From contig JAJEAO010000089.1 in the NCBI GenBank assembly GCA_022822745.1, positions 1 to 61,774 on the forward strand: a stretch of 61,774 bases of DNA, read 5' to 3'. The notes beneath the pieces are model-generated. The model was not told where the DNA came from. It saw only the letters and a list, made by a program, of their open reading frames with translations, and ran no database searches. Positions 9,798-57,067 of this stretch are shown here, in pieces. The DNA comes from Acidobacteriota bacterium (GTDB taxonomy: Bacteria > Acidobacteriota > Vicinamibacteria > Marinacidobacterales > Marinacidobacteraceae). Numbering within the stretch: position 1 is the stretch's first letter; each line of letters starts with the position of its first letter. A program made the translations under genes and the position numbers.

Positions 9798-10792
9798 ATG
9801 CGCGCCCGAGCCGCCCTGACCCCGACCGCGAAGCTCCGCTTCTCGGGGCATCAGACCTTCCCCCTCCGCCACGGCTGGCTCACCAAGGCGGCGCTGGGCA
9901 TCGGGGAGGATCGGGAGCTGTTCCGACGGAAGGACGCGCTCGTCCGGCTGGGCGTGGGCAAGAACATGGTCGCCTCCATCCGCCACTGGTCGCAGGCGAC
10001 CGGCGTGTTGGAGATCTCCCGGGGGCCGGCCCGCCTCACCGGGCTCGGTACGCACCTGTTCGGGCAAAAAACCCTCCCCCCCCCCCCCCCCCCCCCCCCA
10101 CCACCAGTCCTGATCGGGTAACTGCCGAGGCCGCCCGCGCCGCATCGCGGGGCGCGGACCCCTATCTCGAGGATCCGCGCTCCCTCTGGCTCCTCCACTG
10201 GCGGCTGACCGGGCGGCAGACGCCTGCTTCGACATGGCACCTCGTCTTCACCTGCTTCCCGGGCGGGACGTTCACGCGGGAGGAGCTGACCGGGTGGCTC
10301 TCCCGCACGATCGCCGGACGGACGCTCCGCCGGGTCTCGGACGCCTCGCTGCGACGCGATGTGGACGTGTTCCTGCGGACCTACCTGCCGCCGCAGCCCC
10401 ATCCACGCCGCCCGGTCGAGGACACCTTCGACTGCCCTCTCGCGGAGCTCGGCCTCCTCCGGCCGCTCGGAGGCGGCAGCTTCGCGCTGCCCCGCGGGCC
10501 CCGCCCGAGCCTCCCCGCCGAGGTTCTCGCGTTCGCGGTGCACGAGTTCTGGCAGGACCTGTGGAGCCCTGGCGAATCCGGACAGGACACGCTCACGCTC
10601 GAGCGCCTCCTCTATGACGCTGGGAGTCCGGGAGCTGCCTTCCGGATGGATGACCGGGGGCTGGTCGCCGCGCTGGAAGCGCTGCCGCGGAAGTACGGCC
10701 TGGAATACGACGAGACGGCCGGGCTCCGACAGGTCCGCCGTCGCCGCGGCTTCCGTCGCCCCGTCGAGCTGCTGGGAGAACCACTCCAGTGA
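9798..10792 (+). CDS. sspB: SspB-like DUF4007 phosphorothioation nickase, frame broken at a poly-C tract
   Basis: The N-terminal part has the DUF4007 signature: LRFSGHQTFPLRHGWL, then KDALVRLGVGKNMVASIRHW. After LFGQKTL the frame enters 24 consecutive C residues (10076-10099). In the +2 frame downstream the domain resumes: ADPYLEDPRSLWLLHWRL, then FTREELTGW and a C-terminal region ending at 10792. SspB is the ssDNA-nicking component of SspABCD, which replaces a backbone oxygen with sulfur. With 23 or 26 C residues the two parts would join through a poly-proline linker; with 24 as given, translation stops at 10119-10121. The linker insertion between LFG and DPYLEDP is about 30 residues longer than family members I recall. 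The stop overlaps the sspC GTG. Confidence 0.82.
10076..10099 (+). repeat. 24-bp poly-C homopolymer inside sspB
   Basis: A single uninterrupted run of C residues, preceded by AAAAAACCCT and followed by ACCACCAG. It sits where the two halves of the DUF4007 reading frame change frame. Tracts this long are prone to slipped-strand mispairing in vivo, and also to length miscalls. Poly-G read tails from two-colour sequencers can produce the same picture on the other strand. Confidence 0.9.
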
Positions 10793-13700
10793 CGCCGCCC
10801 ACGGCAGGCCTCTTCGCCGGGACCCGACTGGACCGGGCGGTTCGCATCCCGTCGCACTTCCACCGCTCGATCCACCTGGTGGACGACTGGAGCCGCGGCG
10901 GCGGACCGGAGAGTTATCTCGTCACCGGAGCGATCCGCGAGATCGCCGCGACGCTGCTCGACGAGCTGGGGCGCGCGCACGGCACCCGCGCGTGGACGCT
11001 CACCGGCCCCTACGGAGCGGGCAAGTCGGCGTTCCTGCTGTTCCTCGCGGATCTGCTCTCGAGCCCGACGCCACGCCACCCGGAAGCGACGCGCCTGCGC
11101 GAGGAACGACTCCCGAACGGCCCGCTCCTCGAGCCTGTCCTCCTGCAGGCCGGGCCGGCCCCCCTGATTCCCCGGATCGCCGAGGCGCTCGTGGACGCCA
11201 AGACCCGCTGTTCCGGGAAGCCGCATGTCGGACCCGCGAACCCCACGGGCGAGGAGTGCTGCACGCTGCTCGACGAGGCCGCGGAGGCGAGTCGCGGTGG
11301 GCTCCTCGTCGTCGTGGACGAGCTCGGCAAGTACCTCGAACACGCGGCCGCGACTCCGGGTGAGGACATCTTCTTCCTCCAGCAGCTCGCGGAGGCGGCG
11401 GCGCGCAGCCGGAAACCGGTCGTGTTCGTGGGGGCGCTCCACGCCGGGTTCAGCGATTACCTGGGCCACCAGCGCCTCGGCTCCACGGAACGGGCCGAGT
11501 GGCAGAAGGTCCAGGGGCGCTTCCGCGACCTTCCGTTCGCACTGCCCACGGATCAGGCGCTCGATCTCCTGGGCCAGGCAGTCGAGGTCACCGACCCGGA
11601 GTTGCGCATGCGCCTCGCCCGTCAGATCGGCGAGGGAGCGGACCGACTTGTCGGCCTCGGCGCCCCGGCGACCAGGGAGGCGCTCGAGCAGTGCGCGCCG
11701 CTCCACCCGGTGACCGCGCTGCTTCTGTGGCCGCTGTTCCGAAGCAAGGCGGCGCAGAACGAGCGGTCCCTGTTCGCCTTCCTCACCAGCCACGAGCCGT
11801 GGGGATTCCGGGAGTTCCTGGCGCGCGAGCGGGTGATGGACGACGAACAGGTCGCGCTCTACCGGGTGGATCAGCTCCACGACTACCTCTCCACCGCGCT
11901 CGGGGCCGCCACATTCACCGGGACGGACGCCCGCCGCTGGGCCCTGATCGCCTCGGCGCTGGAGCGCATTCCGGCCGATGCCCCGCCGCTCGCCCGGCGC
12001 ATCGTGAAGACCGTCGGCCTGATGTCGCTCTACGGCGAGGGGGTGGGGCTGCGGGCCAGCCGCGAGGGGATCGAGACCGCCTGCGACGACTGCAGCCGGA
12101 AGGAGGTCGCCGCCGCGATCAAGGTGCTCACCGCGCGATCCATCCTGCTCTGGCGCCGCCACCGGGACGCCTACGGCCTGTGGGAGGGGTCCGACATCGC
12201 CCTCGACGAGGCGTTCGAGCAGTTCGCCTCGGAGCGACTCGACGAGCCTCTCCACGAGCGCCTCCGTCGCGTCAGCGAGCCGCGCGCCCTTGTCGCCCGC
12301 CGCCACAGCGCCGAGAGCGGAACGCTGCGGCACTTCGAAGTCCGCCTCGCCTCCCCCGAGACCGCGGCGAAGGAAGCGGCGAGGCCGTCCGGGAACGCGC
12401 GCGAACCCGAGCCCGACGGGATCGTGCTGTTCCTGCTGTCGGAAGACGGGGCCCCGCCCGCAGCCGCCGAGACGATCACCGCCGCGCAGGGAGGCCGACC
12501 CGTCATCGCCGCCATCCCGCAGGTGGGCGAAGCCCTCTCCGCCGCCGTCGCCGAACTCGACGCCTGGCGGCGGGTCCGGGATGCGGTGCCGGCGCTCCAG
12601 GGCGACCCGGCGGCGCTGCGGGAGGTCCGCGCCCAGGAGCACGCGGCCCGCGAGAGGCTGGAGGCTGCCGCGGGGCCGGCGCTGGGGCTGCTCGGGCACA
12701 TCCTCCATCCGTCGCTCTCCCGGTGGTTCGCGGAGGGCGAGCCGAAGGAAATCGGCACATCTCGGGAGCTTCAGAAGCTGCTCTCCGACGCGATGGACGC
12801 GGCCTACGACCAGGCCCCCACGCTTCGCAACGAGCTCCTGAACCGCCGCAAGCTCTCCTCCGCCGCGGCCGCCGGGCGACGCAACCTGATCGCGGCGATC
12901 ACCGACGGCCCGCGGCGGCGACTCGGAATCGAGGGCTTCCCACCCGCCTACAGCATGTTCGCCTCGCTGGTGGAGGCCGGGGGCTTCCTCCGGGAGCGGG
13001 ACGGCGAGTGGTCCTTCACCGCGCCGACGGAGCCTTCGTGGAAGCCGGCGTGGAAGGCGATCCGGGACTTCGTCGCTGGCGCCACCGACGCTCCGCGTCC
13101 CGTAACCGATCTGCGGGCGAGACTCGCCGACCCGCCCATCGGGCTTCGCGACGGACCGTTTCCGGTGCTGCTCGCGCTGTACCTCGCGACCGAAGGCGCC
13201 GCCGTCGCGCTCTACGAGGAGGATGTCTTCGTCCCCGACGCGGGAATCGAAGCGCTCGAACGGCTGCTCCGTCGCCCCGAAACCTTCGCGATGCGCTCGT
13301 TCCGCCTCCCGGGCGAGCAGCGCCGGATCGTGGAAGCAGCGGCGGCCGCCCTCGGGATCCGGACCGGGGAAGAGCCCGGCGCCCTTCTCGTGCAGGTCAC
13401 CCGGCGCCTCGTGGGCGCGGTCGCCCGACTTCCCCGGTACAGCCGCAACACCCGAGGCGTCAGCTCGAAGGCGCAGCGGGTCCGCGCCGAACTCCTCACC
13501 GCGCGGGATCCGTGGGATCTGGTGCTCCGGGATCTCCCGGAGGCTCTGGCAGTCGAACTCGCCGCACCGGGCGCCGCGGCTCGCTACGCCAGGCGCCTGG
13601 CCGAGGCAGTGAACGAGTGCCGGAACGCGTTCCCCGGTCTCCTCCAACGAATCGCCGACGCGCTCGCGGAGGCGCTCCGGGTCTCCGAACTTCGAGAAGC

Positions 13701-14151
13701 GGAGCGGCTGCGCGAGCTGATCGAGCGCGCCCGCGAACTCGAGCCGCACGTGGCCGACGACGCGCTTCGCCGCCTGCTTCGGGCCATCCTGCGGGCCGAG
13801 AACGCGGCCGGGGACTGGCGCGCCGTGGTGGCGCTCCCGCTCGGTGGCGGTCTTCCCGCCGACCGCTGGAACGACGAGCAGGCCGAGGGCGTGGTGGCGC
13901 GGCTTCGGCTGTTCGGTCTCGACGCCGACCGGATCACGGAACTCCTCGCGCACTCCCGGTCCCGACGGAACCCGACCCTTCTCGCCTCGGGAGTCCGGCG
14001 ACTGAAGTCCGGCTCGACGGAAGATCTGGTCAAGCACCTCGACCTGGCACTCGACCCGTCGGGCTTCTCCCAGGAGACCTTGAAGGCGGCGTTCGCGACG
14101 CTCCTCGAGCGGCGGGAGCGCGATGCCGTGGAGGGGGCTCCCCCGGCATGA
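10789..14151 (+). CDS. sspC: SspC-like ATPase of the phosphorothioation complex
   Basis: 1120 aa from a GTG that overlaps the sspB stop (GTGA). Walker A is TGPYGAGKSAF at about residues 72-82; Walker B is GGLLVVVDELGKYLEHA near 170. The order DUF4007-large ATPase-PAPS reductase is the sspBCD arrangement, in which the ATPase supports nicking and sulfur insertion. The rest is helical with an Ala/Arg-rich C-terminus and no other recognised domain. A related ATPase fold occurs in BrxC/PglY of BREX systems, but the neighbours decide for SspC. It overlaps sspD by ATGA. Confidence 0.8.
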   Translation: MTPPTAGLFAGTRLDRAVRIPSHFHRSIHLVDDWSRGGGPESYLVTGAIREIAATLLDELGRAHGTRAWTLTGPYGAGKSAFLLFLADLLSSPTPRHPEATRLREERLPNGPLLEPVLLQAGPAPLIPRIAEALVDAKTRCSGKPHVGPANPTGEECCTLLDEAAEASRGGLLVVVDELGKYLEHAAATPGEDIFFLQQLAEAAARSRKPVVFVGALHAGFSDYLGHQRLGSTERAEWQKVQGRFRDLPFALPTDQALDLLGQAVEVTDPELRMRLARQIGEGADRLVGLGAPATREALEQCAPLHPVTALLLWPLFRSKAAQNERSLFAFLTSHEPWGFREFLARERVMDDEQVALYRVDQLHDYLSTALGAATFTGTDARRWALIASALERIPADAPPLARRIVKTVGLMSLYGEGVGLRASREGIETACDDCSRKEVAAAIKVLTARSILLWRRHRDAYGLWEGSDIALDEAFEQFASERLDEPLHERLRRVSEPRALVARRHSAESGTLRHFEVRLASPETAAKEAARPSGNAREPEPDGIVLFLLSEDGAPPAAAETITAAQGGRPVIAAIPQVGEALSAAVAELDAWRRVRDAVPALQGDPAALREVRAQEHAARERLEAAAGPALGLLGHILHPSLSRWFAEGEPKEIGTSRELQKLLSDAMDAAYDQAPTLRNELLNRRKLSSAAAAGRRNLIAAITDGPRRRLGIEGFPPAYSMFASLVEAGGFLRERDGEWSFTAPTEPSWKPAWKAIRDFVAGATDAPRPVTDLRARLADPPIGLRDGPFPVLLALYLATEGAAVALYEEDVFVPDAGIEALERLLRRPETFAMRSFRLPGEQRRIVEAAAAALGIRTGEEPGALLVQVTRRLVGAVARLPRYSRNTRGVSSKAQRVRAELLTARDPWDLVLRDLPEALAVELAAPGAAARYARRLAEAVNECRNAFPGLLQRIADALAEALRVSELREAERLRELIERARELEPHVADDALRRLLRAILRAENAAGDWRAVVALPLGGGLPADRWNDEQAEGVVARLRLFGLDADRITELLAHSRSRRNPTLLASGVRRLKSGSTEDLVKHLDLALDPSGFSQETLKAAFATLLERRERDAVEGAPPA

Positions 14152-14972
14152 GTTCGCTCTTCGCAGGCAGCACGGAGCCCCGGCACGTCGTGACCCTGTC
14201 CGGCGGCAAGGACTCCACTGCGCTCGCCCTCTACCTCCGCGAGCGCAACCCGGACGTTGCCTACGAATACGTGTTCTGCGACACGCACAAGGAGCTGCCG
14301 GAGACCTACGAGTACCTCGACCGGATCGAGGCGCGGCTCGACCGCCCCATCACCCGGCTCGCCTCGAAACACGGGGAACGCGGATTCGACCACTACCTGA
14401 AGCTCTACGGCGGATTTCTCCCCTCCCCCAGCGCTCGCTGGTGCACCCGGCAGCTCAAGATCGAGCCGTTCGAGCGCCACGTCGGGGACGACCCGACCCT
14501 GCTCTACGTGGGCATCCGCGCCGACGAGAACCGTGGCGGCTACATCTCGACGAAGCCCAACATCCGCGCCGTTTTCCCGTTTCGCGAAGATGGCCTCGGT
14601 CGCACGGATGTCATGCGCATCCTCGAGCAGAGCGGCGTCGGACTCCCGAACTACTACCAGTGGCGCTCGCGTTCCGGCTGCTACTTCTGTTTCTTCCAGC
14701 GCCGCGGCGAGTGGGTGCGCCTCCGGGAGAACCATCCCGATCTCTACAAGAAGGCCAAGGCCTACGAGAAGGAAGACCAGGGCTACACCTGGGTCCAGAA
14801 CGAGAGCCTCACCCAGATCGAGGATCCGGACCGCAAGGCCGCCATCCTCGACCACGAAGCGAAGGATCGCGCCCGCCGCGCCGCCCGCCGCCGGCCCGAC
14901 CGCCTGACCCAGGCCTTCGGCTTCGAAGCGCCGGACGATGAGGACGACGGATGCCTCATCTGTCACAAGTGA
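14148..14972 (+). CDS. sspD: SspD/DndC-like PAPS-reductase-family ATP pyrophosphatase
   Basis: 274 aa. The PP-loop is VVTLSGGKDSTALAL at about residues 14-28. Cysteine pairs lie in SGCYFCFFQRRGEW (near 177-182) and at the C-terminus (CLIC), and could hold an iron-sulfur cluster as in DndC. The enzyme is expected to activate the DNA backbone with ATP and accept sulfur from the cysteine desulfurase. At 274 aa it is nearer SspD than the roughly 500-aa DndC. Overlaps both neighbours by a few bases within a tight operon. Confidence 0.88.
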   Translation: MSSLFAGSTEPRHVVTLSGGKDSTALALYLRERNPDVAYEYVFCDTHKELPETYEYLDRIEARLDRPITRLASKHGERGFDHYLKLYGGFLPSPSARWCTRQLKIEPFERHVGDDPTLLYVGIRADENRGGYISTKPNIRAVFPFREDGLGRTDVMRILEQSGVGLPNYYQWRSRSGCYFCFFQRRGEWVRLRENHPDLYKKAKAYEKEDQGYTWVQNESLTQIEDPDRKAAILDHEAKDRARRAARRRPDRLTQAFGFEAPDDEDDGCLICHK

Positions 14973-16294
14973 TGCCTGCCGCCACCCTGCCGGCGCGCCG
15001 GACTCGTTCGGCCCTCGGAGACCCCGCCCCGCTGCTCGCGGGCGCCGCGCCGGCGCGCCGGGCCAGCTCTCCGGGCGGGGGCCCCGCCCGGCGCACGCGG
15101 GCGACGGAACCCGTTTCCGCTTCACCCGAGGCGACCCACCGGCTCTACCTGGACCATCAGGCCTCCACGCCGATGACGGCAGCGGCTCTTGCAATCCTGC
15201 TCGAAGTCAGCGAGCGCGACTACGCCAACCCGTCGAGCACGCACCGGTCGGGAAAGCGCGCCGCCGCCCGCATCGAGACCGCCCGCGAGCAACTCGCGGA
15301 CGCGACAGGCGCGCTCCCGGAAGAGATCGTCTTCACCGGCGGCGCCACCGAAGCCAACAACCTCGCCATCCTCGGCGCGGCTCTCCACGCCACCGAGCGC
15401 GGACGCGACCCGAAGCGCCGCCGGATCATCACACTTCCCATCGAACACCCCTCCGTCCTCGCCCCGGCGCGGCATCTGGCCGAGCGGGGTTTCCGGCTCG
15501 ACATCGCCCCGGTCCAGGGAAACGGGCGAATCCGGCTCGACGCCCTCGACGACCTGCTCGGAGAGGACGTCCTGCTGCTCTCGATCCAGACCGCGAACAA
15601 CGAGATCGGAACGATCCAGCCCGTCGCCGAGGCGGCCGCCCTTGCCCGAGAGCACGGGGCTCTCGTCCACACCGACGCCGCCCAGGCGCTCGGCAGGACG
15701 CCGCTCGATGTGGAGGCGATGGATGTGGACTTCGCCTCGCTGAGCGCCCACAAGTGCGGCGGCCCCAAGGGCGTCGGGGCGCTCTTCGTGCGAGAGGGAC
15801 CGAACCGCGCGCCCATCCTTCCGATCACCTACGGGGGCGGGCACGAGCGCGGCCTCCGTCCCGGCACCCAGAACACTCCCGGCATCGCGTCGTTCGGCAT
15901 CGCCGCCACCGAAGCCGTCGAGCGCCTCCGCACGGACGCGCCGCGCCTCGCCGCCCTCCGCGACGAACTCGAGGCCGAGATCCTCTCCCGCATCCCCGAC
16001 GCCCGCATCAACGGCGCCCAGGACCACCGCGTCCCGAACGCCACCTCGATCACTTTCCCCGGCGTGGATGCGGACGCGCTCATCGCCCGCCTTCCCGACC
16101 TCGACCTCTCCGCGGCCTCCGCCTGCCACGCCGGAACCCCCGAGCCGTCCCATGTCCTCCGCGCCATCGGCCTGACGACCGAAGACGCCTACTCCACCCT
16201 CCGCCTGTCTCTCGGCCCGTACGCGGCCGCCCACACGATACCGCGCATCGCCCTGCGCATAGCCGACCAGGCACCCCCGCTTCGAGCGCCCTAG
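14972..16294 (+). CDS. sspA: SspA/NifS-type cysteine desulfurase with an odd N-terminal extension
   Basis: 440 aa. A PLP-dependent enzyme that takes sulfur from cysteine and hands it to SspD. Motifs: LYLDHQASTP at the domain start, FTGGATEANN, the PLP lysine in SAHKCGGPKG near 258, and the catalytic-cysteine loop SAASACHAG near 385. The ATG at 14972 shares one base with the sspD stop; an ATG at 14951 is also in frame. About 55 residues precede the normal NifS start, encoded by GC-rich palindromic DNA with no ATG, GTG or TTG nearer the domain. The extension looks like intergenic repeat DNA captured into the gene. Confidence 0.9.
   Translation: MPAATLPARRTRSALGDPAPLLAGAAPARRASSPGGGPARRTRATEPVSASPEATHRLYLDHQASTPMTAAALAILLEVSERDYANPSSTHRSGKRAAARIETAREQLADATGALPEEIVFTGGATEANNLAILGAALHATERGRDPKRRRIITLPIEHPSVLAPARHLAERGFRLDIAPVQGNGRIRLDALDDLLGEDVLLLSIQTANNEIGTIQPVAEAAALAREHGALVHTDAAQALGRTPLDVEAMDVDFASLSAHKCGGPKGVGALFVREGPNRAPILPITYGGGHERGLRPGTQNTPGIASFGIAATEAVERLRTDAPRLAALRDELEAEILSRIPDARINGAQDHRVPNATSITFPGVDADALIARLPDLDLSAASACHAGTPEPSHVLRAIGLTTEDAYSTLRLSLGPYAAAHTIPRIALRIADQAPPLRAP
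14985..15091. repeat. REP-like palindromic DNA in the 5' end of sspA
   Basis: It contains CCCTGCCGGCGCGCCGG (14985-15001), which is identical over 17 bases to part of the 95-bp tandem repeat at the end of the window. A second GCCGGCGCGCCGG copy lies near 15049. A perfect 10-bp palindrome, CCGGGCGGGG with CCCCGCCCGG around one base, spans 15071-15091. The region is translated as the sspA N-terminal extension. Confidence 0.6.
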
Positions 16295-16322
16295 TCATCG
16301 CCCCACACGCCACGACTCCACC

Positions 16323-18239
16323 ATGCCTCGCCGACGACGAACCGCATACACCCACCAGCTCGACGGCCATTTCGGTCGATTCGGAATGGCCGCAGGCGTC
16401 CAGCCCTTCTATCTCCTGAGCGCCATGCGGCCCGTTCAACTGACGGAACGCGTGTCCCTCATCAGTGAAATCCCTGGCTCCGAGCGATGGCCGATCCGGG
16501 AGCTGTTCCAGAGAGATGTGGATAGCGACCGCGTCAGCACGGCGCTCTTGCCCTATCTCCGCAACACCGGCAACGTCAAGTTCTTCAGTCCGCTGGTACT
16601 GACGCTTCTTCCGGTCTCCGCGGACTCGAAGCAGGTGCAGCAGCTCATGCCGCGGCTGAAGCGAACCGATAGCGACGAAGAGGGAACGCCGTGGCGCGCT
16701 CTGGAGCGTCCGAATCACTATCGGATCGCGTGGAACCGGGATCGACACGATGAGGCGTGCTTGCAGTGGAACTCCAGCCGCGTCCGCCTGGTTGCAATTG
16801 ACGGCCAGCACCGACTCGCCGCACTCAAGCAACGAACTGACGATCGCGGCGCTGACGGATACAAGGCGTTCCTCCGCTGGCGAATCCCCGTCGTCGTTGT
16901 CTCCTACCAGGCCGACACGACCGGTGACCTGCCGACAGTACTGAACGTCGTGCGGAGCACTTTCGTCAACATCAACACGACTGCCAAGCCCGTAAGTCGG
17001 TCACGATCCATCCTCCTGTCTGACGGCAGCGTCAATGCCATCTGCACACAGGAGCTCCTCCAGCGCTCTCACGACGCGGACAACCGCGACGACAGCTCTC
17101 GATCAACCCGTCTTCCGCTCCTGTTCTTCGATTGGCGGGGAGAGGAGAAAGGAGGGAAGCCTGTACCATCCCAAGTCGCAGTCACTGGAGTGGATGAGGT
17201 CCATGACTGGTTCGAACGCTACATCCTTGGCGAAGATCTGAGTGAGCAGCAGGAGGACGCGCTTCAGAGGATCCTGACCGACGAACTCAGAGCCGCCTTC
17301 AGGGATCGGAGAAAGACGAGCAAGGATGACCACCACAACGTGCTGACTCACCTGGAGTCCAATGCGCTTCGGGACCGGATTCACCAGGAGCATTTCCTCG
17401 ATGCCGTGGCCCACGTTCTCGAGGGCTTCACTCCCTTCAACAAATACACTACGGACGTGCGATCCCTCGAGCGCGATCTACGGAACGATCCGGCCGGCAA
17501 CTTGGCCCGCCACGCGTTCGACCTTCTGCGCTATGGCACACCAGCTCCTCTGCACATTGCCAGAGATGTTGAGGAGCAGAAGGTGCGTCTCGAGGCGACA
17601 CTTCTGGAGCTTCGGACGTTCCCGCGGCCGCTGAGCCACGATGTCGGAAAGCGAGGCATCGTGTGGGCGTTCGGAGAGCTCCGTCGTGCTCTGGGCCGCC
17701 CCCCGTGGCGGACCTTCGCTCGCTGGTTCACCAAGGCGCTGAACCGCGCCTACACGGCCGGAGCCCTGGATCTACAGGACGATGAGAGTCGGCGGCGCCT
17801 GACGCACATTGTGGTGAACGAACGCGGCACGATCATCAACTATCGACTGCGCGACTCCGAGTCTGCTTTCGGTGCCTACGTAGCTCTCATGGTCGGCGCC
17901 TTCGGTGGACTCGATCGGGCGGCGGATCTGGCCGTCAAGAACGGCGCACTCGTCGCGGTGCCGGAGATGAAGCCCCTCAAGGAGAAGGACGGCATCACGC
18001 CGAAGATTCTCGAAGGATGGCGGGCGAAACAGAAGATGTGGCTCAAGAAGATTCGACAGACACTCGCCCGCGGTTACCGGAAGGAGATCTTTCCCGACCT
18101 CAAGAAGCGGTTCCCCCAAGGCGGAACCCTTCTGAACGAGGCGGCCACGAAGCAGGCCGGGCGGCTCGCCAAGAAGCATGTGGCTGAGCTCGAAGACCAT
18201 CTCGCAGCAGTGGCCACGGCCCCGAGCCCGGTCATCTGA
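16323..18239 (+). CDS. DGQHR-domain (DndB-like) protein
   Basis: 638 aa. The signature LVAIDGQHRLAALKQ lies at about residues 156-170, followed by VNINTTAKPVSRSRSILLSD, the usual DndB/DGQHR sequence. DndB is the DNA-binding regulator of Dnd phosphorothioation; DGQHR proteins also occur in other DNA-modification islands. This one is much longer than DndB (about 380 aa), with an extra C-terminal half rich in Lys/Arg. It lies 28 bases after sspA and leads the second operon segment. It may regulate the cassette or sense modified DNA. Confidence 0.78.
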   Translation: MPRRRRTAYTHQLDGHFGRFGMAAGVQPFYLLSAMRPVQLTERVSLISEIPGSERWPIRELFQRDVDSDRVSTALLPYLRNTGNVKFFSPLVLTLLPVSADSKQVQQLMPRLKRTDSDEEGTPWRALERPNHYRIAWNRDRHDEACLQWNSSRVRLVAIDGQHRLAALKQRTDDRGADGYKAFLRWRIPVVVVSYQADTTGDLPTVLNVVRSTFVNINTTAKPVSRSRSILLSDGSVNAICTQELLQRSHDADNRDDSSRSTRLPLLFFDWRGEEKGGKPVPSQVAVTGVDEVHDWFERYILGEDLSEQQEDALQRILTDELRAAFRDRRKTSKDDHHNVLTHLESNALRDRIHQEHFLDAVAHVLEGFTPFNKYTTDVRSLERDLRNDPAGNLARHAFDLLRYGTPAPLHIARDVEEQKVRLEATLLELRTFPRPLSHDVGKRGIVWAFGELRRALGRPPWRTFARWFTKALNRAYTAGALDLQDDESRRRLTHIVVNERGTIINYRLRDSESAFGAYVALMVGAFGGLDRAADLAVKNGALVAVPEMKPLKEKDGITPKILEGWRAKQKMWLKKIRQTLARGYRKEIFPDLKKRFPQGGTLLNEAATKQAGRLAKKHVAELEDHLAAVATAPSPVI

Positions 18240-18250
18240 GGATTCGGGCG

Positions 18251-20467
18251 GTGTCGACGTTGCGAGCATCGGGCCTCCGAGGCGGCTTCTATCGCCTGCC
18301 GGACGATCCCGTCGCCACAGACGTACTTATCCCGGCGTTCGGAGCGGCCACATCGGTGCGCGGCGCCTTCGGGTGGTTCTCCTCCGGGTGGGTCGGAGCT
18401 CTGGCCCCCGGCCTCGCGGACTATCTGAATCGGGAGGAGGCCACGCCGATCGAGTTCACGGTCGCCCCTGCTCTATTCGCGAAGGACCGGGAGGCCATTG
18501 GGAGAGTGACCTCCTTGACCGACGACGACGCCGCCAGGCTCGTGGCGGAGGTCTTCGTGAACGGCAGAGCGCAGGCCGACGGCATCGCTCGTCACGCCCT
18601 CGACTGCATGGCGTGGCTGATCCGCGAGGGCCGCCTCAGGCTGCGGATTGCCGTCCCAACTCCCGACTCGAACTATCACCCGAAGATGTGGCTCTTCGAC
18701 GACACCCACCATCAGGTTCTGGCTCGGGGGTCCGGCAACGCAACGCTGCGAGGTGTCGCGACCGGCGTCGAGCACCTCGATGTGGATGTGTCCTGGTCTC
18801 GGGAAGGGGCAGCGAAGGTCCGAAAGGGCGTCGGGTTCCTGGACGACTGGTCCCACGGCCGCAGCCATGGGATCGCCCGTGTCATCGCCTTACCGGAGGC
18901 GCTTGCCGAGCAGATCATCGAGACCGTCCCCGACCGGAAGCCCACCCCGGCCGATTACGCCGTTCTCGAGCAGCGAGCAAGACGGAGGCGCTCCCGTCGG
19001 CGATTCGCCCCCCTGCCCCGGCTCCGCATCCCGCCGGGACTCAACTGGGAGGAAGGCCGCTACGCCCATCAGGGAGAGGCGGTAGCCGCATGGGAAGGCG
19101 GTGACCAGCCGGAGCGCGGCACGATCTCGATGGCGACCGGCGCCGGGAAGACCATCACCGCCCTGATCTGCGCGACTCGGGCCCAGGATCGCCTCGGCGG
19201 CTCCCCCTTCCTTGTCGTCGTCTCGGCTCCCTCCAAGCCACTCATCACTCAGTGGCGGCGCGAAGTGAAGAAATTCGGCGTCCGCGCCATCGCTCCCAGC
19301 CTCGAGCGATCCATGGCCGCGGGCATGACGCGCGCTCTGCACTCGGTCGCCCGCGGCGGAACCACGGTCCTGATCACGACCAACGCCTCCCTGTGCAAGC
19401 CGTCCTTCCAGTCCACCGTCGAGCACATCCTCGCTCGCAATGGCCGACGTGTCCCGTCCATGTTCATCGGCGACGAGGCCCACACCCTGGGCGCCGCGGG
19501 GTTCATCTCGAATCCGCCAGACTTCTTCGAGAGGCGAATGGCGCTCTCAGCCACTCCCGTGCGGCAGTACGACCCGGACGGCACCGAGGCGGTCTTCGAC
19601 TACTTCGGTCCTCCGGTCTTCGAATTCGGGCTCGACCAGGCGATCGGTTTCTGTCTCGTTCCTTACAATTACCACGTTCACGCAACGACACTGACGGGCG
19701 AGGAGCTTGACTCCTTCCTGGAGCTGACCGCGCGCATCAAGAGGCTGACGGCCTTCGCGGACGACGACCCGAACGCTCAAGAGCGACTCACGCGCCTTCT
19801 GATCAAGCGTCGGCGGCTCGTCGAGACGGCCGAAGGCAAGCTCGAATTGCTGCGGGAGGTTCTGGAGCGCCGAGGGCCACGAGAGATTCACCATGCCCTC
19901 ATCTACGCCACGGCGAAGGATCCGGATCAGTTCGAGGCCATCGGCGCGTTGCTCGGCGAACTGGGCATCCGATGGGCCCCGGTCACCCAGGCAGAAACGC
20001 CCAGGGCCAGGAAGCTCCAGCAGACCTTCGATCGGTTCCGGCAGGGCGCCCTCCAGGTTCTCCTGGCGAAGAAGGTGCTCGACGAGGGGGTGGACATCCC
20101 TCACATCCGGGAAGCCTTCATCGTGGCCTCCTCCCAGGTCGAACGTGAGTGGATCCAGCGCCGCGGCCGCGTCCTCCGGCGCCACCCGGGCAAGTCCCAC
20201 GCGACCATCCACGACTTCCTCTCACTGCCCCCACCGGGTCCGGACACTTCCGAGCCAGACGTGCTGAAGCTCGTGGGTGTCGAGCTGCATCGGGCGTACC
20301 ACTTCGCGGCTCATGCCAGAAACGCAGCCGGAGATCAGGGGGCCCTCCAGGAGATGAAGAGCCTCTCCGCAGCCTACTTCGCGGGTTCGGAGCACATCAC
20401 GCCGGCGCTCAGCTTTCTCCGCCCGCGATACATCTCCATCTCGACACCGGAGGGATCCCTGCAGTGA
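18251..20467 (+). CDS. PLD-like nuclease fused to an SF2 helicase
   Basis: 738 aa from a GTG start preceded by GAGG. The N-terminal 230 residues hold one PLD motif: NYHPKMWLFDD with GSGNAT (HxK-x4-D, near 141). The helicase follows: Walker A SMATGAGKT near 293, GDEAH near 406, SATPVR near 432, and motif VI QRRGRVLRRH near 635. A PLD domain with a translocase is a typical restriction effector. Next to sspBCDA it is the best candidate for cleaving DNA that lacks phosphorothioate. It may correspond to a component of an SspFGH-type module, which I cannot confirm without alignment. Confidence 0.8.
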   Translation: MSTLRASGLRGGFYRLPDDPVATDVLIPAFGAATSVRGAFGWFSSGWVGALAPGLADYLNREEATPIEFTVAPALFAKDREAIGRVTSLTDDDAARLVAEVFVNGRAQADGIARHALDCMAWLIREGRLRLRIAVPTPDSNYHPKMWLFDDTHHQVLARGSGNATLRGVATGVEHLDVDVSWSREGAAKVRKGVGFLDDWSHGRSHGIARVIALPEALAEQIIETVPDRKPTPADYAVLEQRARRRRSRRRFAPLPRLRIPPGLNWEEGRYAHQGEAVAAWEGGDQPERGTISMATGAGKTITALICATRAQDRLGGSPFLVVVSAPSKPLITQWRREVKKFGVRAIAPSLERSMAAGMTRALHSVARGGTTVLITTNASLCKPSFQSTVEHILARNGRRVPSMFIGDEAHTLGAAGFISNPPDFFERRMALSATPVRQYDPDGTEAVFDYFGPPVFEFGLDQAIGFCLVPYNYHVHATTLTGEELDSFLELTARIKRLTAFADDDPNAQERLTRLLIKRRRLVETAEGKLELLREVLERRGPREIHHALIYATAKDPDQFEAIGALLGELGIRWAPVTQAETPRARKLQQTFDRFRQGALQVLLAKKVLDEGVDIPHIREAFIVASSQVEREWIQRRGRVLRRHPGKSHATIHDFLSLPPPGPDTSEPDVLKLVGVELHRAYHFAAHARNAAGDQGALQEMKSLSAAYFAGSEHITPALSFLRPRYISISTPEGSLQ

Positions 20468-20676
20468 AGAACTTCGAACGGATTGCCGAGGAAATCCGCC
20501 GCCTCGCTCGCGAGCACGCTCCAGCATCGGGACGTCCCGCCAAGGAACTGGAGCTCCTGGCCCTTCAGATCGTGAACGAGACGGACCGGCGGAGGACGGA
20601 ACGACGAGGGGGCCGTCGCTCGCAGCACATCAAGCCGATGATCCGCGATGCCGCCCTGGACGGAACGCGCCGCTGA
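20464..20676 (+). CDS. Small DNA-modification-system-associated protein
   Basis: 70 aa from a GTG overlapping the helicase stop (GTGA). It is a charged, helical protein (KELELLALQIVNETDRRR, then RSQHIKPMIRDA). It resembles a family of roughly 70-aa proteins annotated beside DNA-modification operons, with no known activity; this recall is not verified. The overlap with the helicase gene and the 9-base gap to the ATPase gene suggest it joins these two in one complex. Confidence 0.6.
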   Translation: MKNFERIAEEIRRLAREHAPASGRPAKELELLALQIVNETDRRRTERRGGRRSQHIKPMIRDAALDGTRR

Positions 20677-20685
20677 CGAGACGCC

Positions 20686-22881
20686 ATGCTCATTCTCCAA
20701 CGACTCAGGGTCAGGAACTTCGTCTGCTTCGACGATCTCGTCATCGAGCCGTCCACGGATCAGGAACGACGACTCACGGTGGTGCGGGCCGAGAACGGCT
20801 CCGGCAAGACGACCCTGCTGCGCGCCATCCTCTGGGGCCTTTATGGGGACGAGGCGCTGCCCAGGCAGCAGGGACGCCCGTTTCGCCTTCACCCGGTGGA
20901 CTGGACGCCGGATTCCGGACCGGTCGAGACGCGCGTGGAGGTGGAGTTCAAGACCGAGATCTCGACTGGGGACCGGTCCAAGTCCAGCCGCGAGATTCGT
21001 GGCTTCCTGACTCGCTCGGCGGTGACGAGCGCCGGCCGATCGCAGGAGTCCGACGGCGCAGACTTCCGTCGCCTTCCGTCGAAACTCACCCTCATGCGGG
21101 CCCATCCCATCACGGGGGCCTGGGGGGAATGGGGCGGCCTCCCCGAGCAGCAGGTACTCGAGAACCTCCTCCCATTCGATCTGCGCAGCTTCTTCGTCGT
21201 CGATGCCGAAGAGGCGACCGACTTCGTCGGCGGGGTCGAAGCGAAGGATCTGAGTCGAGCCCAGGTCGTGGACAAGACCACGGGCGCCGTCCAGGCTCTT
21301 CTCGGTCTCGATGCGTTCCGCGCCGCCCAGACCCACCTCGAGAAGCTCGAACAGACGTTTCGGCGCGAGGCCAGCCGAGCCTGCGACAGCGACGAACTCG
21401 CCCGGCGCCAGGCCGAGGTGGATCAACTTGAGAAGGAAGCGCGGGCCGTCAGCACCACCCTCACCGAGGCGCACGCGACCCTCGACGATCTCCGATCACG
21501 CCGAGCCCAAGCCAACGCCGAACTGCGGAGCCTTCTGACCGGCTCTGGCGACCGTGACCAGCTCCGCCGCCTGAAGGCTCGCCTGGACCAGGAGTACACC
21601 GAGTCGCGTCGTGCCTGGAAGAACACGCTGAGCTCTCTCTCGGATGTGATGGCCTCGCGAGAGATTCTCGGTGCGCTCGGGGCAGAGACCCTCGAGCAGG
21701 TGTTCCACTTGCTCCGCCCGCTCCACGACGACGGTCTAATCCCGATGAGACACGTGCCGTTCGTCCGACGGCTCCTGGACGAAAGGGAGTGCGTCTGCGG
21801 CGAGCCCCTGGACGACGGCACACCTCGCCGCGATGTCGTCCTTCGGATCGTCGAAGACTCCACCGCCTCCCAGCGCGCCGACCATCTGGGTCATGTCTTC
21901 GACTTCAGCCGTACACTCGCACAGTCCACCGTCCAACGCTGGGAAGACACAGCTCGCGACGTGGTCGAGCGAAAGACGGATCTGGAGCAGCGTCTCGAAG
22001 ACATTGTCGGCGAACAGGACGAACTCCAACGAAAACTCGACCGACTCGACGACGAGCGAATCGACGTGTGTCAGAACGCGCTTCGCGCGATCAACACGCA
22101 GATCGGTAACACGGAGCGATCTGTGGGAACCATGGAAGGCAAGAAGAGAAACAAGGAGCAGCGACTCCACGCCATGAGAAAGAGGCTCGACGCCGATACG
22201 AGGCGGTCACGTGGCGCTCGTGAAGGCAGGCAGTGCCAGGAGCTGACGGCAACGCTTCGCGCCATCCTCAAAGGAGCGTATGACCGCATCCTGCGCGAAC
22301 AGGTTCACGAGCTCTCCTCCAGCATGCGGACGCTATTTCGGGAGATGGCGCTGAACGTCCGTGACGACACCGCGCGAGGGGCTGACGAGGGCAAGGCCAG
22401 ATTGGCGATGATCGCCGAGGTTGGCGTCCGGGCAACCCGGCACCGCGATCAGAGCTTCGAGATCTACGCTACGGACGCCCGCGGCCACTTCATGCCTCCC
22501 ACCGAGATCAACGGTGCTTCACGGCGGGTGCTTGCTCTCTCTTTCATCTTGGCGATCTGTGAAGTGAGTGGGGTGCGGAGTTTCTTCGTCGCCGACTCGT
22601 TGCTGAACTTCATGTCCGGGCACGTACGCACGAACGCTCTCCGCGCGACCACACAGCACTGTCCCCAACCCATTCTGCTCCTCACGCCAGCCGACCTCGC
22701 TGCGGAGCACGAACGGCGGCTGGTTCGAGAGTACGCCGGAAGGTGCTACACGCTGACAGGTCAGTGGCAACACGGTTCCGAGCGGGGCGATGTCGTGAAC
22801 CTGACCGACCCTCGACATATCTCTCTCCTCTGTCGCTGTGGACCAGAGTCGTACTGCCCCACCTGTGAGCGACATGCGTGA
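20686..22881 (+). CDS. SMC/DndD-like AAA ATPase
   Basis: 731 aa. Walker A is AENGSGKTTLLRA near 35-46, in the standard MLILQRLRVRNFVCFDDL opening of the SMC/Rad50/DndD family. Long coiled coils (about 215-290 and 430-540) flank a central segment with a cysteine pair (ECVCGEPL near 365) that could form a zinc hook. The signature region is NGASRRVLALSFILAI and Walker B is SFFVADSLL, where Ser follows the Asp instead of the usual Glu. The last residues carry more cysteines (CRCGPESYCPTC). Probably the DNA-tethering ATPase of the restriction module. Confidence 0.82.
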   Translation: MLILQRLRVRNFVCFDDLVIEPSTDQERRLTVVRAENGSGKTTLLRAILWGLYGDEALPRQQGRPFRLHPVDWTPDSGPVETRVEVEFKTEISTGDRSKSSREIRGFLTRSAVTSAGRSQESDGADFRRLPSKLTLMRAHPITGAWGEWGGLPEQQVLENLLPFDLRSFFVVDAEEATDFVGGVEAKDLSRAQVVDKTTGAVQALLGLDAFRAAQTHLEKLEQTFRREASRACDSDELARRQAEVDQLEKEARAVSTTLTEAHATLDDLRSRRAQANAELRSLLTGSGDRDQLRRLKARLDQEYTESRRAWKNTLSSLSDVMASREILGALGAETLEQVFHLLRPLHDDGLIPMRHVPFVRRLLDERECVCGEPLDDGTPRRDVVLRIVEDSTASQRADHLGHVFDFSRTLAQSTVQRWEDTARDVVERKTDLEQRLEDIVGEQDELQRKLDRLDDERIDVCQNALRAINTQIGNTERSVGTMEGKKRNKEQRLHAMRKRLDADTRRSRGAREGRQCQELTATLRAILKGAYDRILREQVHELSSSMRTLFREMALNVRDDTARGADEGKARLAMIAEVGVRATRHRDQSFEIYATDARGHFMPPTEINGASRRVLALSFILAICEVSGVRSFFVADSLLNFMSGHVRTNALRATTQHCPQPILLLTPADLAAEHERRLVREYAGRCYTLTGQWQHGSERGDVVNLTDPRHISLLCRCGPESYCPTCERHA

Positions 22882-22932
22882 CGATGATGGGACCGAGGTC
22901 GGTGACGCCTGACGGCCAGGAGAGCACTTCAG

Positions 22933-23508
22933 ATGACGAACTACTTCAGGAACCTTCTGTGGGGCAAGGCTTACACGCTCTACATACCCAAGGACGACAA
23001 AGACCGCGCCGAGCGGTGCGTTCAGATGCACTCCGGTGGCGGGACGAATCCAGAAGAGCGCCCGTTCAAGCGCCAACTCGACCTCTGGGCCATGTGTGTT
23101 GCAGTCGCAGCGGCGCGCGATCTGGAGCCCCGGAGGGGCCCTATCAGCCGTTGGGGGCGCAAGTTCGTGGACACGAGGAGCGTACCGGTCGATGAGCACA
23201 TCGCGGGACTGCTCTGCGTCCTGGCCGTGTCTCGGTATGGGGTCGATTCGAGCGACGCTCTCGATCCCGGGAAGATCGTCGAGCTCGGGAACCGGCTCGC
23301 TGGCGCAGGCTGCCCGATTCTCCTGGATCGAGTGTTCGACGCGAAACGGAACGTGTATCCCATGACCAATCTGATCGACTTCGCCACGGAGCTCTCCGGC
23401 AGCGCGCGCCAGACCATGAAAGAATCATCCGGGGCCGAGGAGCCGGCGATCCCGACGGGGCCGCACCGCGCGGATGTCGATGGAGCGCTAGTGGCTGCCG
23501 CACCCTGA
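22933..23508 (+). CDS. Unrecognised 191-aa protein of the phosphorothioation island
   Basis: I do not recognise the family. AGGAGA lies 9 bases before the ATG. The first 150 residues are compact (WGKAYTLYIPKDDKDRAERC, RQLDLWAMCVAVAAARD, DEHIAGLLCVLAV), and the last 40 residues are low complexity. Its place after the DndD-like gene is where dndE sits in Dnd operons, but the DndE sequence pattern is absent. It may be a small DNA-binding or adaptor subunit; that is a guess from position. Confidence 0.55.
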   Translation: MTNYFRNLLWGKAYTLYIPKDDKDRAERCVQMHSGGGTNPEERPFKRQLDLWAMCVAVAAARDLEPRRGPISRWGRKFVDTRSVPVDEHIAGLLCVLAVSRYGVDSSDALDPGKIVELGNRLAGAGCPILLDRVFDAKRNVYPMTNLIDFATELSGSARQTMKESSGAEEPAIPTGPHRADVDGALVAAAP

Positions 23509-23589: not shown

Positions 23590-26016
23590 GTGAATCGAAG
23601 CGATACGGCACTGTCATCGGCGGTCGCCGCGCGACACTTCCTCACCGTCGCGCCTGCGCTGGTGGATCTTGCGGCCCGGCGGGAGGTCGGCGCCGAGAGA
23701 TTGGTGTGGCCTGCCGGGCTGGATGGAGGGTTTGCGTCCTCGCTGTCCGTGAATGTCCGGACGGCCAACGCGCTTGGCTGGGCCCTTGATCGGGGACTCG
23801 CGCATGGTGGTCGGGCGGTCACGGCAGCAGAACTCCTGGGACAGCGAAACTTCGGACCGGCGAGCCTTAGACAGCTCGTGATCGGCTTGGGCGGGGCCTT
23901 GGCGTCAATCGTGTCTTCGAGGGGCGTTCGGTCGGGAGATGACGCTTCGCGGGTCACAGAGTCAGAGGTGCCGCTTCCCCCCGCACCAGACGAAGCGATG
24001 GGTCACCTGGTCGCACTGACGCCGGCCATACTGGCGCTGGCAGACCGGGGTTGGATCAAGATGAGTACGGTGGTCTGGCCCGCGGGCCTGGACATCCGAC
24101 TGATCACGGAGCTCAGGGGAGCGGACGCCGCCTCAGCTCGCGTGTTGGAGGCGATCGAGGGCCAACCCACGGCAGGTGGAGTCACGGCGAGCGACATCCT
24201 CGCCGTTCATGGGTTCCACCGACAGCGATCGAGGCGGTTCGTCGTGGATCTGGCGCAGTACCTGATCGCTGCTGCCTCCGCCGAAGGGGTTGGCCCCGAT
24301 CCGGGTGAGGACCGGGCGAAGTCCGCGGCAGCTCCGCGGCAGACTCCTTCGGCCCAAGTGTCCTCGACGCCGCCCGCGTCCCCCGCGACGGAAAGGGAAC
24401 TGAGCCACAACAAAGAGACGGTTCCGAGCCCATCGAGTCGTCCCGTCGCGCCTGCCGACGACGATTCTGTCACCGCATGGGAGCGCGCGAAGAAGGTGCT
24501 CCAGCCGCTCCTCGCCATGGCGGTCCAGTTCGAGCGCGTGAGCACTCTCCGCGATGTGCTCGATCCCGAGTTGCGGAAACTGGCGTCGGCTCTAGACCAG
24601 AGCGAGGAGCTGGACTCGATCCAGGTGAGGGACTTGTTGGGGGCAGAGCCCTCCCCAGCCGCGCGCATCGCTTCCGACGTCAAGACATTCCTGCGGGAAC
24701 TCACCCCCGCCGAGATGCAGGTCGTCGAGCTCCGACTCCTGCGCGAGGACTTGACGCTGGACGCCGTCGGACGCCGGCTCGCTGTGACACGCGAGCGGGT
24801 CCGGCAGCTCCAGGTTCGGCTGGAACGCCGCCTCGACTCGGCCCCCGGCACTGTGGCGAGGGAGGTCGCCGCGGTGTTGCGACCCACCCTCGGACCTGTG
24901 TGTACGCCGGAAGAAGTGGAGGCCGCCCTGACGCCGTTGCTCACGACGCTGGATGGGAGGGCGAAGCGTCTGGCTCGATACGTTCTCCTCCCGAGTCTGG
25001 ACTACCCGCTCGTCCATGGCTTGTACATGGACACGAAGGGGCGGCGCATCTTCGACTCGCTGAGGGTGAAGATCCGTGATTTGGCGGACGACGCCGGCCT
25101 CATCTCCAAGTCCGAGATCTGGCCCCATGTCCCACCCGAGCTCAAGCGAGTGTGGCCCCGACTTCGGGATGCCTATGGCTTCGCCTTGATCGGGCGTCAC
25201 TGGGCGCTTCGAGTCACGCAGAGGGCCAAGGTGAAGGCTGCGCTCCTCGCGATCGGCGAACCGGCTCCAGCCAGTGACGTTGCGGAGCGAGCCGAGGTCA
25301 CCAAACGGCAGGCAGCAACGGTCCTGGCGAACCTCCCCAGCGTGGTCAAGGCCGACAGGACGCGCTGGGGCATTCGAGACTGGGTTGCCGAGCCCTACGA
25401 AGGCATCGCCGAGCAGATCGTCAAAAGGATCAAAGACGGCGGTGGTTGGGCCGACAAGGAAACCCTCGAGCGGGAACTCCCCGAGAAGTTCGGCGTCACG
25501 GCCGGGAGCGTCCGGCAGTACCTGAGAACCGATCGGTTCACGGTTCGGAGCGGTCGGGTCACGCTGACGGACGCGAACACGCTCCACCTCCGGCCACTCG
25601 ACGCTGTCGTCGCCCGGGATCGAACCGGAGCCCCGTACTGGGAGTTCCAGGTGGAGGGCCGCTACCTCGAGGGCTACAGCGTGACGGGGCTCCCAGCCGA
25701 GCTCGCGCACCATCTGGAGTGCCCACCGGATTCCGGCATTCGCGTACCGCTCACGAGCCCTCCCGGAGTGAAACCGCTGTCCATCCGGTGGCCCTTGGCA
25801 TCCACGACGGGACTCTCGCTCGGCTACGTGAAGGAACCGCTCCATGAGCTTGGCGCGAAACCCGGAGACCGCGCGCGAGTCGTTTTCCGAGGGGGCGGAG
25901 CGGCCGAAATGACTCTGATGAAGAACGCCCGGCGCGACCCGCAGCCGGAGAGCCGCCCAGCGGAGAGTGCCGAAGACATCCTCGAGGCGATGCGGCGGCG
26001 CCGCCAGGCGTGGTAG
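23590..26016 (+). CDS. Protein with alpha-CTD-like repeats, a sigma-region-4-like helix-turn-helix and winged helices
   Basis: 808 aa from a GTG preceded by GAGG. Two N-terminal repeats each carry VWPAGLD (near residues 38 and 160) and a helix-hairpin-helix-like stretch (VTAAELLGQRNFGPASLRQL, VTASDILAVHGF) that resembles the RNA-polymerase alpha C-terminal domain. After a Pro/Ser linker comes a sigma-70 region 4-like segment: LTPAEMQVVELRLL, then LAVTRERVRQLQVRLERRL (about 375-420). The C-terminal half holds repeated winged-helix units (PASDVAERAEVTKRQAATVL). No sigma region 2 is seen, so it is not a normal sigma factor. Likely a DNA-binding regulator or sensor of the island. Confidence 0.65.
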   Translation: MNRSDTALSSAVAARHFLTVAPALVDLAARREVGAERLVWPAGLDGGFASSLSVNVRTANALGWALDRGLAHGGRAVTAAELLGQRNFGPASLRQLVIGLGGALASIVSSRGVRSGDDASRVTESEVPLPPAPDEAMGHLVALTPAILALADRGWIKMSTVVWPAGLDIRLITELRGADAASARVLEAIEGQPTAGGVTASDILAVHGFHRQRSRRFVVDLAQYLIAAASAEGVGPDPGEDRAKSAAAPRQTPSAQVSSTPPASPATERELSHNKETVPSPSSRPVAPADDDSVTAWERAKKVLQPLLAMAVQFERVSTLRDVLDPELRKLASALDQSEELDSIQVRDLLGAEPSPAARIASDVKTFLRELTPAEMQVVELRLLREDLTLDAVGRRLAVTRERVRQLQVRLERRLDSAPGTVAREVAAVLRPTLGPVCTPEEVEAALTPLLTTLDGRAKRLARYVLLPSLDYPLVHGLYMDTKGRRIFDSLRVKIRDLADDAGLISKSEIWPHVPPELKRVWPRLRDAYGFALIGRHWALRVTQRAKVKAALLAIGEPAPASDVAERAEVTKRQAATVLANLPSVVKADRTRWGIRDWVAEPYEGIAEQIVKRIKDGGGWADKETLERELPEKFGVTAGSVRQYLRTDRFTVRSGRVTLTDANTLHLRPLDAVVARDRTGAPYWEFQVEGRYLEGYSVTGLPAELAHHLECPPDSGIRVPLTSPPGVKPLSIRWPLASTTGLSLGYVKEPLHELGAKPGDRARVVFRGGGAAEMTLMKNARRDPQPESRPAESAEDILEAMRRRRQAW

Positions 26017-26159
26017 AGGCAGGTCGTCATCCCGATTCGCGCCGAGAACGCACTTCCCGGAACGCACATCCATGACGGGTGAGAACGGACCACGGACGGC
26101 TCTTGCCCTTGAGCGGAGGGCGCCAGAATCGGCATGGCGCACACTGCCCCGCGAGGATC

Positions 26160-57039: not shown

Positions 57040-57067
57040 GCGCCTTCGGCTCCTGCCGCTCGCCCCT

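Follow-up and report, generated by a model that had tools for sequence, protein, structure and literature searches.

How a bacterium could switch on and off a defence that is written into its own DNA backbone is the question raised by a nine-gene locus of an Acidobacteriota bacterium of the family Marinacidobacteraceae (GCA_022822745.1, a draft genome of 3.54 Mb in 120 contigs, 92% complete). The locus spans positions 9798-23508 of contig JAJEAO010000089.1, of which the first 61,774 nucleotides were analysed (hereafter the window), and its genes, all on the + strand, occur in the order sspB-sspC-sspD-sspA-DGQHR-pbeA-pbeB-pbeC-pbeD. We consider it probable, at roughly two chances in three, that the locus encodes a phase-variable Ssp phosphorothioate (PT) defence, here joined to the module PbeABCD. 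SspBCDA is predicted to place single-strand PT marks on host DNA, which in the studied Ssp cases are 5'-CpsCA-3'. PbeABCD would tell self from phage DNA by these marks and block phage replication, and a run of 24 cytosines (C24) in sspB, the first gene, is likely an on/off switch that works by replication slippage. The combination of Ssp and Pbe would be what is new, the PbeABCD parts having already been published with Dnd. Statements on published systems draw on the accessible portions of the papers cited; loci and genomes are given by our own numbers (L and G).

Homologues of SspA, SspB, SspC and SspD are all present together in the PADLOC search, SspB through its N half (PADLOC SspB E value 1.2e-26; PF13182 1.6e-24). 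PF13182 is also assigned, from precomputed annotation, to the C half (protein P0128), the intact relatives being P0126 and P0127, and a profile built from SspB relatives matches the solved SspB structure 6JUF (E 7.8e-61). The sspB start at 9798 is consistent with the start of P0126; the start codons of sspD and pbeB are our choice. Because neighbouring genes overlap (sspB/sspC by 4 bases, sspC/sspD by 4, sspD/sspA by 22 and pbeA/pbeB by 4) or are separated by short spacers of 9-51 bases, one transcript for all nine is likely. A first-pass annotation of this DNA had described overlapping sspBCDA genes followed co-directionally by a DGQHR protein, a PLD-SF2 helicase, a 70-amino-acid (aa) protein, an SMC-like ATPase and one further protein, and had read them as Ssp writer genes coupled to a restriction-side module that in part recalls Dnd. 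PADLOC bears out SspB, SspC, SspD, SspA, PbeA and PbeC in this order, and with them the coupling of an Ssp writer to a restriction module, but sspB in this assembly is not one open reading frame.

Judged by homology and gene order, four of the five genes downstream of sspA are the published PbeABCD module, pbeB by place and size only. This module of four genes is known from archaea, where it accompanies DndCDEA (PMC6459918); PbeA is described as an HKD nuclease plus SF2 helicase, PbeB as small and fast-evolving, PbeC as an ABC ATPase of the CxC type and PbeD as cognate to DndE (PMC10853773). Here, PbeA carries the HKD motif HPKMWLFD at residue 143, and PbeC has a CVC (CxC hook) at 369 and a C-terminal finger, CRCGPESYCPTC, at 716. 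The latter gene had been thought to recall DndD; we rejected this on its PADLOC scores (PbeC 1.3e-40 versus DndD 1.7e-24) and the CxC hook, the best NCBIfam model being DndD at 94 bits against a cut-off of 246. The last, formerly unrecognised, protein of 191 aa is probably PbeD by place, size and distant homology: it is 28% identical to PbeD of plasmid CP099618.1 (E 2e-9), and a comparison of profiles built from small alignments links it to Dnd-linked PbeD (E 1.1e-4). A PDB sequence search with it gave no significant match, and its fold model is poor (predicted local distance difference test, pLDDT, 56), with DndE 4LRV at rank 10 and E 3.5, which is noise.

Among the PADLOC matches listed for the ten scanned proteins (for the PbeC gene, the best 25 of 99) there is no SspE, SspF, SspG or SspH, nor any PglZ or BrxL, and the same library does pick up SspF and SspG in L042. 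DndC, DndD or DndE is the best match for none of the ten, and no dnd search was made elsewhere in the genome. The missing SspE-type gene agrees with the first-pass annotation, which had offered an SspFGH-like variant or an undescribed restriction partner in its place; neither fits, since no SspFGH appears among these matches and PbeABCD, already described as a companion of Dnd (PMC6459918; PMC10853773), accounts for four of the five downstream genes. As parts, then, the downstream genes largely match a described system one to one, and it is the pairing with Ssp that stands.

The C24 run lies in the linker of sspB and puts the N half (SGHQTFPLRHGWL..., stop at 10119-10121) and the C half (DPYLEDPRSLWLLHW..., to 10792) in different frames. 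The frame problem, already hinted at in the first-pass annotation, is due to this tract, which recurs at the same linker in relatives: L045 has C28, L046 has C13, and L051 has runs of 28, 19, 11 and 25 with a gap of 10 N. We measured 63 SspB loci (the window, 34 from genomes, 27 viral and 1 from a plasmid) and found a C or G run of at least 13 in four, the next longest run being 8. All four belong to one five-member clade (support 100/98); the hypergeometric chance of such clustering is 8e-6, a figure computed on related rows, and two changes on the tree suffice to explain it. In 20,000 mononucleotide shuffles of sspB, with the bases of the tract kept in, a run of at least 13 came up 53 times; C24 is far longer. 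No further members of the tract clade turned up in 148 genomes from the class to which G351 belongs.

At the protein level, 120 SspB relatives listed of 440 include six with an in-frame linker of 4-8 prolines, seen as proteins and not as DNA, and four with a run but no in-frame N half (three proline, one glycine); the N-half pattern misses some intact SspB, and the class of 27 with neither N half nor run is not used as a count. Among L045, L046 and L051, the ratio of nonsynonymous to synonymous substitution (dN/dS) of the sspB halves is 0.16-0.33 (for the N half on 52-78 codons only), compared with 0.21-0.30 for sspC. Because these values are similar to those of sspC, as under purifying selection, neither half appears visibly decayed. 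Relatives thus show a homopolymer within an open reading frame in both in-frame and out-of-frame states, the pattern by which we recognise a phase-variable gene, between species only. Since runs of this kind recur at this position in relatives, the run in the window would likely serve as an on/off switch of the defence. No phase switch in an ssp or dnd gene was found in the accessible portions of the openly licensed literature (PMC6459556, PMC9239176, PMC9239217, PMC12602166, PMC12707154, PMC12839542).

Tracts of this kind also occur in other modification genes. The genome of the window has only three runs of C12 or longer: the one in sspB, a C45 at a contig edge, and an in-frame C12 in an N6/N4 DNA methylase (G000:C11:5540-5551, L090), which scores as coding in one frame. 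The homologue of this methylase in G351 (58% and 45% identical for its two parts) has a C19 near the same place, and there the frames are split. Of the tract sites listed for these genomes, 20 were fetched, a set that leaves out G448:C75 and G177:C6, C13, C19 and C40, and 16 of the 20 could be scored. With a limit for clearly coding of at least 0.6, set after the scores were seen, four of the 16 score as coding both before and after the run, in frames that differ (L075, G351:C4; L081, G351:C11; L082, G401:C55; L083, G401:C63), and all four match DNA methyltransferases. Two are copies of a single type III gene from two genomes, 72-74% alike; a third is another type III gene; and L082 gives, for its N part, a weaker match to type II. 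L088 has split frames at a lower score and is among 15 remaining sites without annotation. Together, the methyltransferase tracts suggest that this phylum has a whole group of modification genes subject to phase variation.

Does the pairing of Ssp with Pbe extend beyond this contig? The survey of other genomes that had been suggested at the outset finds that it does. We compared 42 Ssp loci, comprising the window, five from a GTDB scan with the DGQHR family (in one of which, L032, sspA alone is seen) and a further 36 taken from genomes. Five of the 42 have PbeA together with SspD (the window, L034, L037, L039 as continued in L074, and L064); the window was the seed and L034 was first met via PbeA. 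Several loci end at contig edges, so 5/42 is a lower bound. Counted by survey, Ssp-Pbe occurs in 3 of 15 SspD genomes of the phylum sample and in 2 of 5 from the organism's own order (window included in both), and in 1 of 11 from a second phylum. The helicases of L065 and L066 are weak as PbeA (7e-27 and 7e-25) and were left out of these counts. Plasmid records with SspD number 65 and those with PbeA 11; among 60 listed of the 65, one has both. This is CP099618.1 of Sphingomonadaceae bacterium OTU29MARTA1, where an uninterrupted run of eight genes reads cysteine desulfurase-DUF4007-sspC-sspD-pbeA-pbeB-pbeC-pbeD (pbeA 723 aa, pbeB 74, pbeC 693, pbeD 148). In IMG/VR, PbeA adjoins SspD in 4 of 27 SspB loci, which are two near-identical pairs, and one locus of each pair (L099, L119) was confirmed by PADLOC. 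The spacing from sspD to pbeA is a 4-base overlap in L122, 28 bases in L034, 33 bases in L064, and at most about 230 bases in L098 and L099.

On a tree of SspD (39 rows), the Pbe label needs five changes, one per locus. Ssp and Pbe are treated as separate partners in the accessible portions of PMC6459918, PMC10853773, PMC8092258, PMC8053081, PMC9239217, PMC12707154 and PMC7464106, and no report of their pairing was found in these openly licensed texts, their supplements being outside the scope. One of them surveyed human strains for ssp, dnd and pbe and counted strains with a writer plus pbeA-D, the type of writer being unnamed in the portion available (PMC7464106).

On the PbeA tree, seven of the eight Ssp-linked PbeA fall in one clade (support 100/99). 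Outside it are eight PbeA whose loci have dnd (L072, L124, L126, L127), a methyltransferase (L073, L125, L128) or no writer in view (L123). The eighth Ssp-linked sequence, L119, takes no settled position. The near-copies L120 (of L119) and L098 (of L099) were dropped from these trees, which carry warnings of long branches meeting, and our earlier proposal that all Ssp-linked PbeA form one clade was lowered on account of these warnings and the placement of L119. A C-terminal C-x-C-x5-C-x2-C finger is found in all six full-length PbeC from Ssp-linked loci, all of that PbeA clade, and in none of seven full-length PbeC from other loci, of which L124 and L127 are close kin; the incomplete PbeC of L126 was excluded. 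Ssp-linked Pbe may therefore be a branch adapted to single-strand marks, and shared descent alone would also give the finger and the clade. The PbeA that comes after SspBCD in L119 and L120 belongs to a different PADLOC group (PDLC02706, tested for L119), perhaps through a second origin of the pairing.

How such a switch might work follows from what is published on the two halves. SspB nicks DNA and nicking is needed for PT marks, and defence by PbeABCD depends on PT in host DNA (PMC9239217). With the tract in frame, the cell would mark its own DNA and Pbe would block unmarked phage DNA; with the tract out of frame, marking would stop, Pbe would idle and self-damage would be avoided. The OFF state could therefore be affordable to the cell. 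Partners of the DndFGH or SspFGH type harm unmarked cells (PMC8092258), and with these the cost of the OFF state would be serious. Since sspC starts on the sspB stop (GTGA), an early stop 670 bases before sspC would also uncouple downstream translation. The argument from an affordable OFF state concerns the window; the other tract loci have different genes after sspBCDA-DGQHR.

The tract could also act with no heritable switch at all: slippage during transcription or translation of the cytosines would yield a fixed share of full-length SspB at any length. The three ungapped genome copies (window, L045, L046) are all out of frame, yet both halves are under purifying selection, as if the gene were still working, which speaks for this explanation. 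We regard it as unlikely, given that tract lengths differ among relatives (13, 24, 28), that in-frame forms exist, and that methyltransferases of these genomes also contain tracts, PADLOC assigning three to type III, a known phase-variable class; type I and III systems that vary in phase through homopolymer slippage are mentioned in PMC12707154. Somewhat less probable still, in our judgement, is that sspB is simply broken or the tract length an assembly error, leaving an ordinary Ssp writer with a Pbe partner and nothing to switch. Long C runs are hard to assemble, this is a draft genome in 120 contigs, and there are N's inside the tracts of L051; against this, runs occur at the same linker in three more genomes and poly-proline linkers in further database proteins, none of the 59 other SspB loci has a run of 9 or more, and neither half shows other decay. 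Least probable of the three is that Ssp stands beside Pbe only through the clustering of defence genes, without joint function. The TmtA-like gene at 27448-31935 does mark a defence island, and close SspD relatives differ in having Pbe at the locus (L039 versus L038, L037 versus L040); PbeA nevertheless follows SspD directly in L122, L034 and L064 and closely in L098 and L099, and a single PbeA clade and the PbeC finger are seen only with Ssp.

A phase-variable Ssp defence joined to Pbe is therefore the reading that we prefer, and several observations weigh against it. The fifth member of the tract clade, L029, lacks the tract, and tract length differs between species only, with no within-strain variation seen. 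Assemblies are unreliable over C24, as the 10-N gap inside the L051 tracts illustrates, and three out-of-frame copies of three would fit chance (8/27) or a silent gene as well as slippage in expression. Among the tract loci, Pbe occurs only in the window: none was found over the stretch fetched in L045 and L051, L046 ends at a contig edge, and no tract was found in the other Ssp-Pbe loci. More tracts, without annotation, are present in G177 and G448, genomes of relatives. On the Pbe side, searches that included NCBIfam, PADLOC and Pfam gave no sequence match for the 70-aa protein, which is taken as PbeB only from its size and place; PbeD shows no kinship with DndE when small alignments are compared by hhalign, though it is called a DndE cognate in PMC10853773; and the plasmid PbeA of CP099618.1 lacks a strict HKD motif. 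A promoter scan found none, with terminators at chance level. Finally, no 600-aa DGQHR gene is present in the Ssp-Pbe loci L034, L037, L064, L074, L098, L099, L119 and L122, L037 having only a partial match of 27%; DGQHR is therefore not required for the pair.

The DGQHR gene goes with Ssp and not with Pbe. Among the five loci found by the DGQHR scan alone, sspBCD lies directly upstream in four (L032 has only sspA), and loci found via SspD add the window, L045 (with two copies), L046 and L051, where the gene likewise comes after sspA. Weak matches of 26-28% identity in L037, L041, L057 and L058 were not counted in the 600-aa family, and a viral scan for the family found none. The protein matches TIGR03187 (9e-8), below the cut-off of that model. 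The resemblance to DndB first remarked on is distant, and a plain DndB was rejected, PF14072 giving 18.4 bits against a curated cut-off of 29.1. BLAST against the DndB-like neighbours of L029 and L045 gives 30% over 92 aa. The fold model is of good quality (pLDDT 82.5), its best PDB match, at E 0.85, being meaningless, and a PDB sequence search found no significant match. Our guess is that the protein is a DndB-like regulator of marking, and this is the weakest step of the explanation. In L029 (11849-14891) and L045 (2392-5494), a DndB-like gene and a SNF2 helicase follow SspBCDA-DGQHR in the place of Pbe, possibly another set of Ssp partners, and in both L031 and L046 the DNA downstream of DGQHR gives weak GIY-YIG matches.

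Also present in the window are several further genes, listed with the locus in Table 1. Directly after pbeD is a sigma-70 region 4/helix-turn-helix (HTH) protein. A protein annotated as sigma factor-like HTH, of about 1020 aa, lies upstream of pbeA in two Dnd-Pbe plasmids (L124, L127), and no full-length homology was found between these and the 808-aa protein. Three of the Ssp-Pbe loci have distantly related AAA ATPase genes after pbeD: L064 (13693-14970), L122 (14403-15497) and the window, where the sigma-like gene comes first. The TmtA-like gene further downstream is the reason for regarding the region as a defence island.

Table 1. Features of the window, with coordinates, strand and the basis of each assignment
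Feature	Coordinates	Strand	Basis or remark
sspB, DUF4007 nickase of the Ssp writer	9798..10792	+	two frames; N-half frame ends 10121, C-half frame 10792
C24 homopolymer in sspB linker, proposed phase-variation tract	10076..10099	+	between the two halves
sspC, ATPase	10789..14151	+	PADLOC SspC 8.1e-244; start overlaps sspB stop by 4 bases
sspD, PP-loop sulfurtransferase	14148..14972	+	PADLOC SspD 3.4e-109
sspA, cysteine desulfurase	14951..16294	+	PADLOC SspA 7.5e-126; DndA 1.7e-122
DGQHR protein, 638 aa, distant DndB kin, Ssp-linked family	16323..18239	+	TIGR03187 9e-8, PF14072 0.0012, both below cut-off
pbeA, HKD/PLD nuclease domain + SF2 helicase	18251..20467	+	PADLOC PbeA 8.5e-160; TIGR04095 1.7e-102 (below cut-off)
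pbeB-like small protein, 70 aa	20464..20676	+	place and size
pbeC, CxC-hook ABC ATPase, C-terminal CxCx5CxxC finger	20686..22881	+	PADLOC PbeC 1.3e-40, DndD 1.7e-24
pbeD, 191 aa	22933..23508	+	place and size, distant homology
sigma-70 region 4/HTH protein, 808 aa, possible accessory	23590..26016	+	PF04545 1e-9; directly after pbeD
AAA ATPase, possible accessory	26079..27302	+	PF13401 4e-8; 27% over 285 aa to plasmid ATPase, E 4e-12
1495-aa protein, sacsin-like N part + C-terminal helicase	27448-31935		PADLOC TmtA-like 6.8e-48 (N part)
DNA methylase	56122-57138		N6_N4_Mtase 8e-47; adjoins thiolase gene

The closest described system on the restriction side is DndCDEA-PbeABCD of Haloterrigena jeotgali A29 (PMC6459918), which has these four genes in identical order; its PbeB is 66 aa long and its PbeD 152 aa, against 70 and 191 aa here. 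Unlike that system, the window has SspBCDA and not DndCDE as its writer, a PbeA outside the clade of the four dnd-linked ones compared, a PbeC with the extra C-terminal finger, and a poly-C tract in sspB. With SspABCD-SspE and SspABCD-SspFGH (PMC8092258) it shares, by homology, the single-strand PT writer, and differs in its partner, which is Pbe with DGQHR. BREX type 4 likewise has SspB/C/D-like writer genes (PMC12839542), whereas the window's SspC scores far above BrxC and its SspD above BrxP. In the Pgl system of Streptomyces coelicolor, phage defence is likewise switched by a homopolymer in a DNA-modification gene, a tract of 8 G in pglX, at 1e-2 to 1e-4 (PMC4365076); methylation is the mark there and phosphorothioation here, and the switching reported there is only inferred here. 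Type III methyltransferase phasevarions also have a tract in a DNA-modification gene, and such tracts occur in the same genomes, but the tract in the window would switch a backbone sulfur mark together with its restriction partner.

A wider proposal, on which we are evenly divided, is that of a phase-variable DNA-backbone code, in which one sspB tract switches both sulfur marking and the PbeABCD arm, within a set of tract-bearing modification genes (sspB, methyltransferases) maintained in more than one family of the phylum. If so, the Ssp-linked Pbe lineage with its PbeC finger would be a separate reader specialised for marks on one strand, and a population would hedge its bets on phosphorothioation as others do on phasevarion methylation. 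The pairing itself could explain part of the sspBCD loci with no known restriction partner (2,211 of 2,678; PMC8092258) and part of the pbeAC pairs with no nearby dnd writer (320 of 553, of which 155 have a methyltransferase; PMC6459918), and the eight-gene operon on a plasmid from a pure culture makes it testable at once. A slippery sspB tract, if true, would be the first phase-variable phosphorothioation known to us. Published partial marking within strains may have another cause, and the sspB switch would offer one reason for PT differences between cells.

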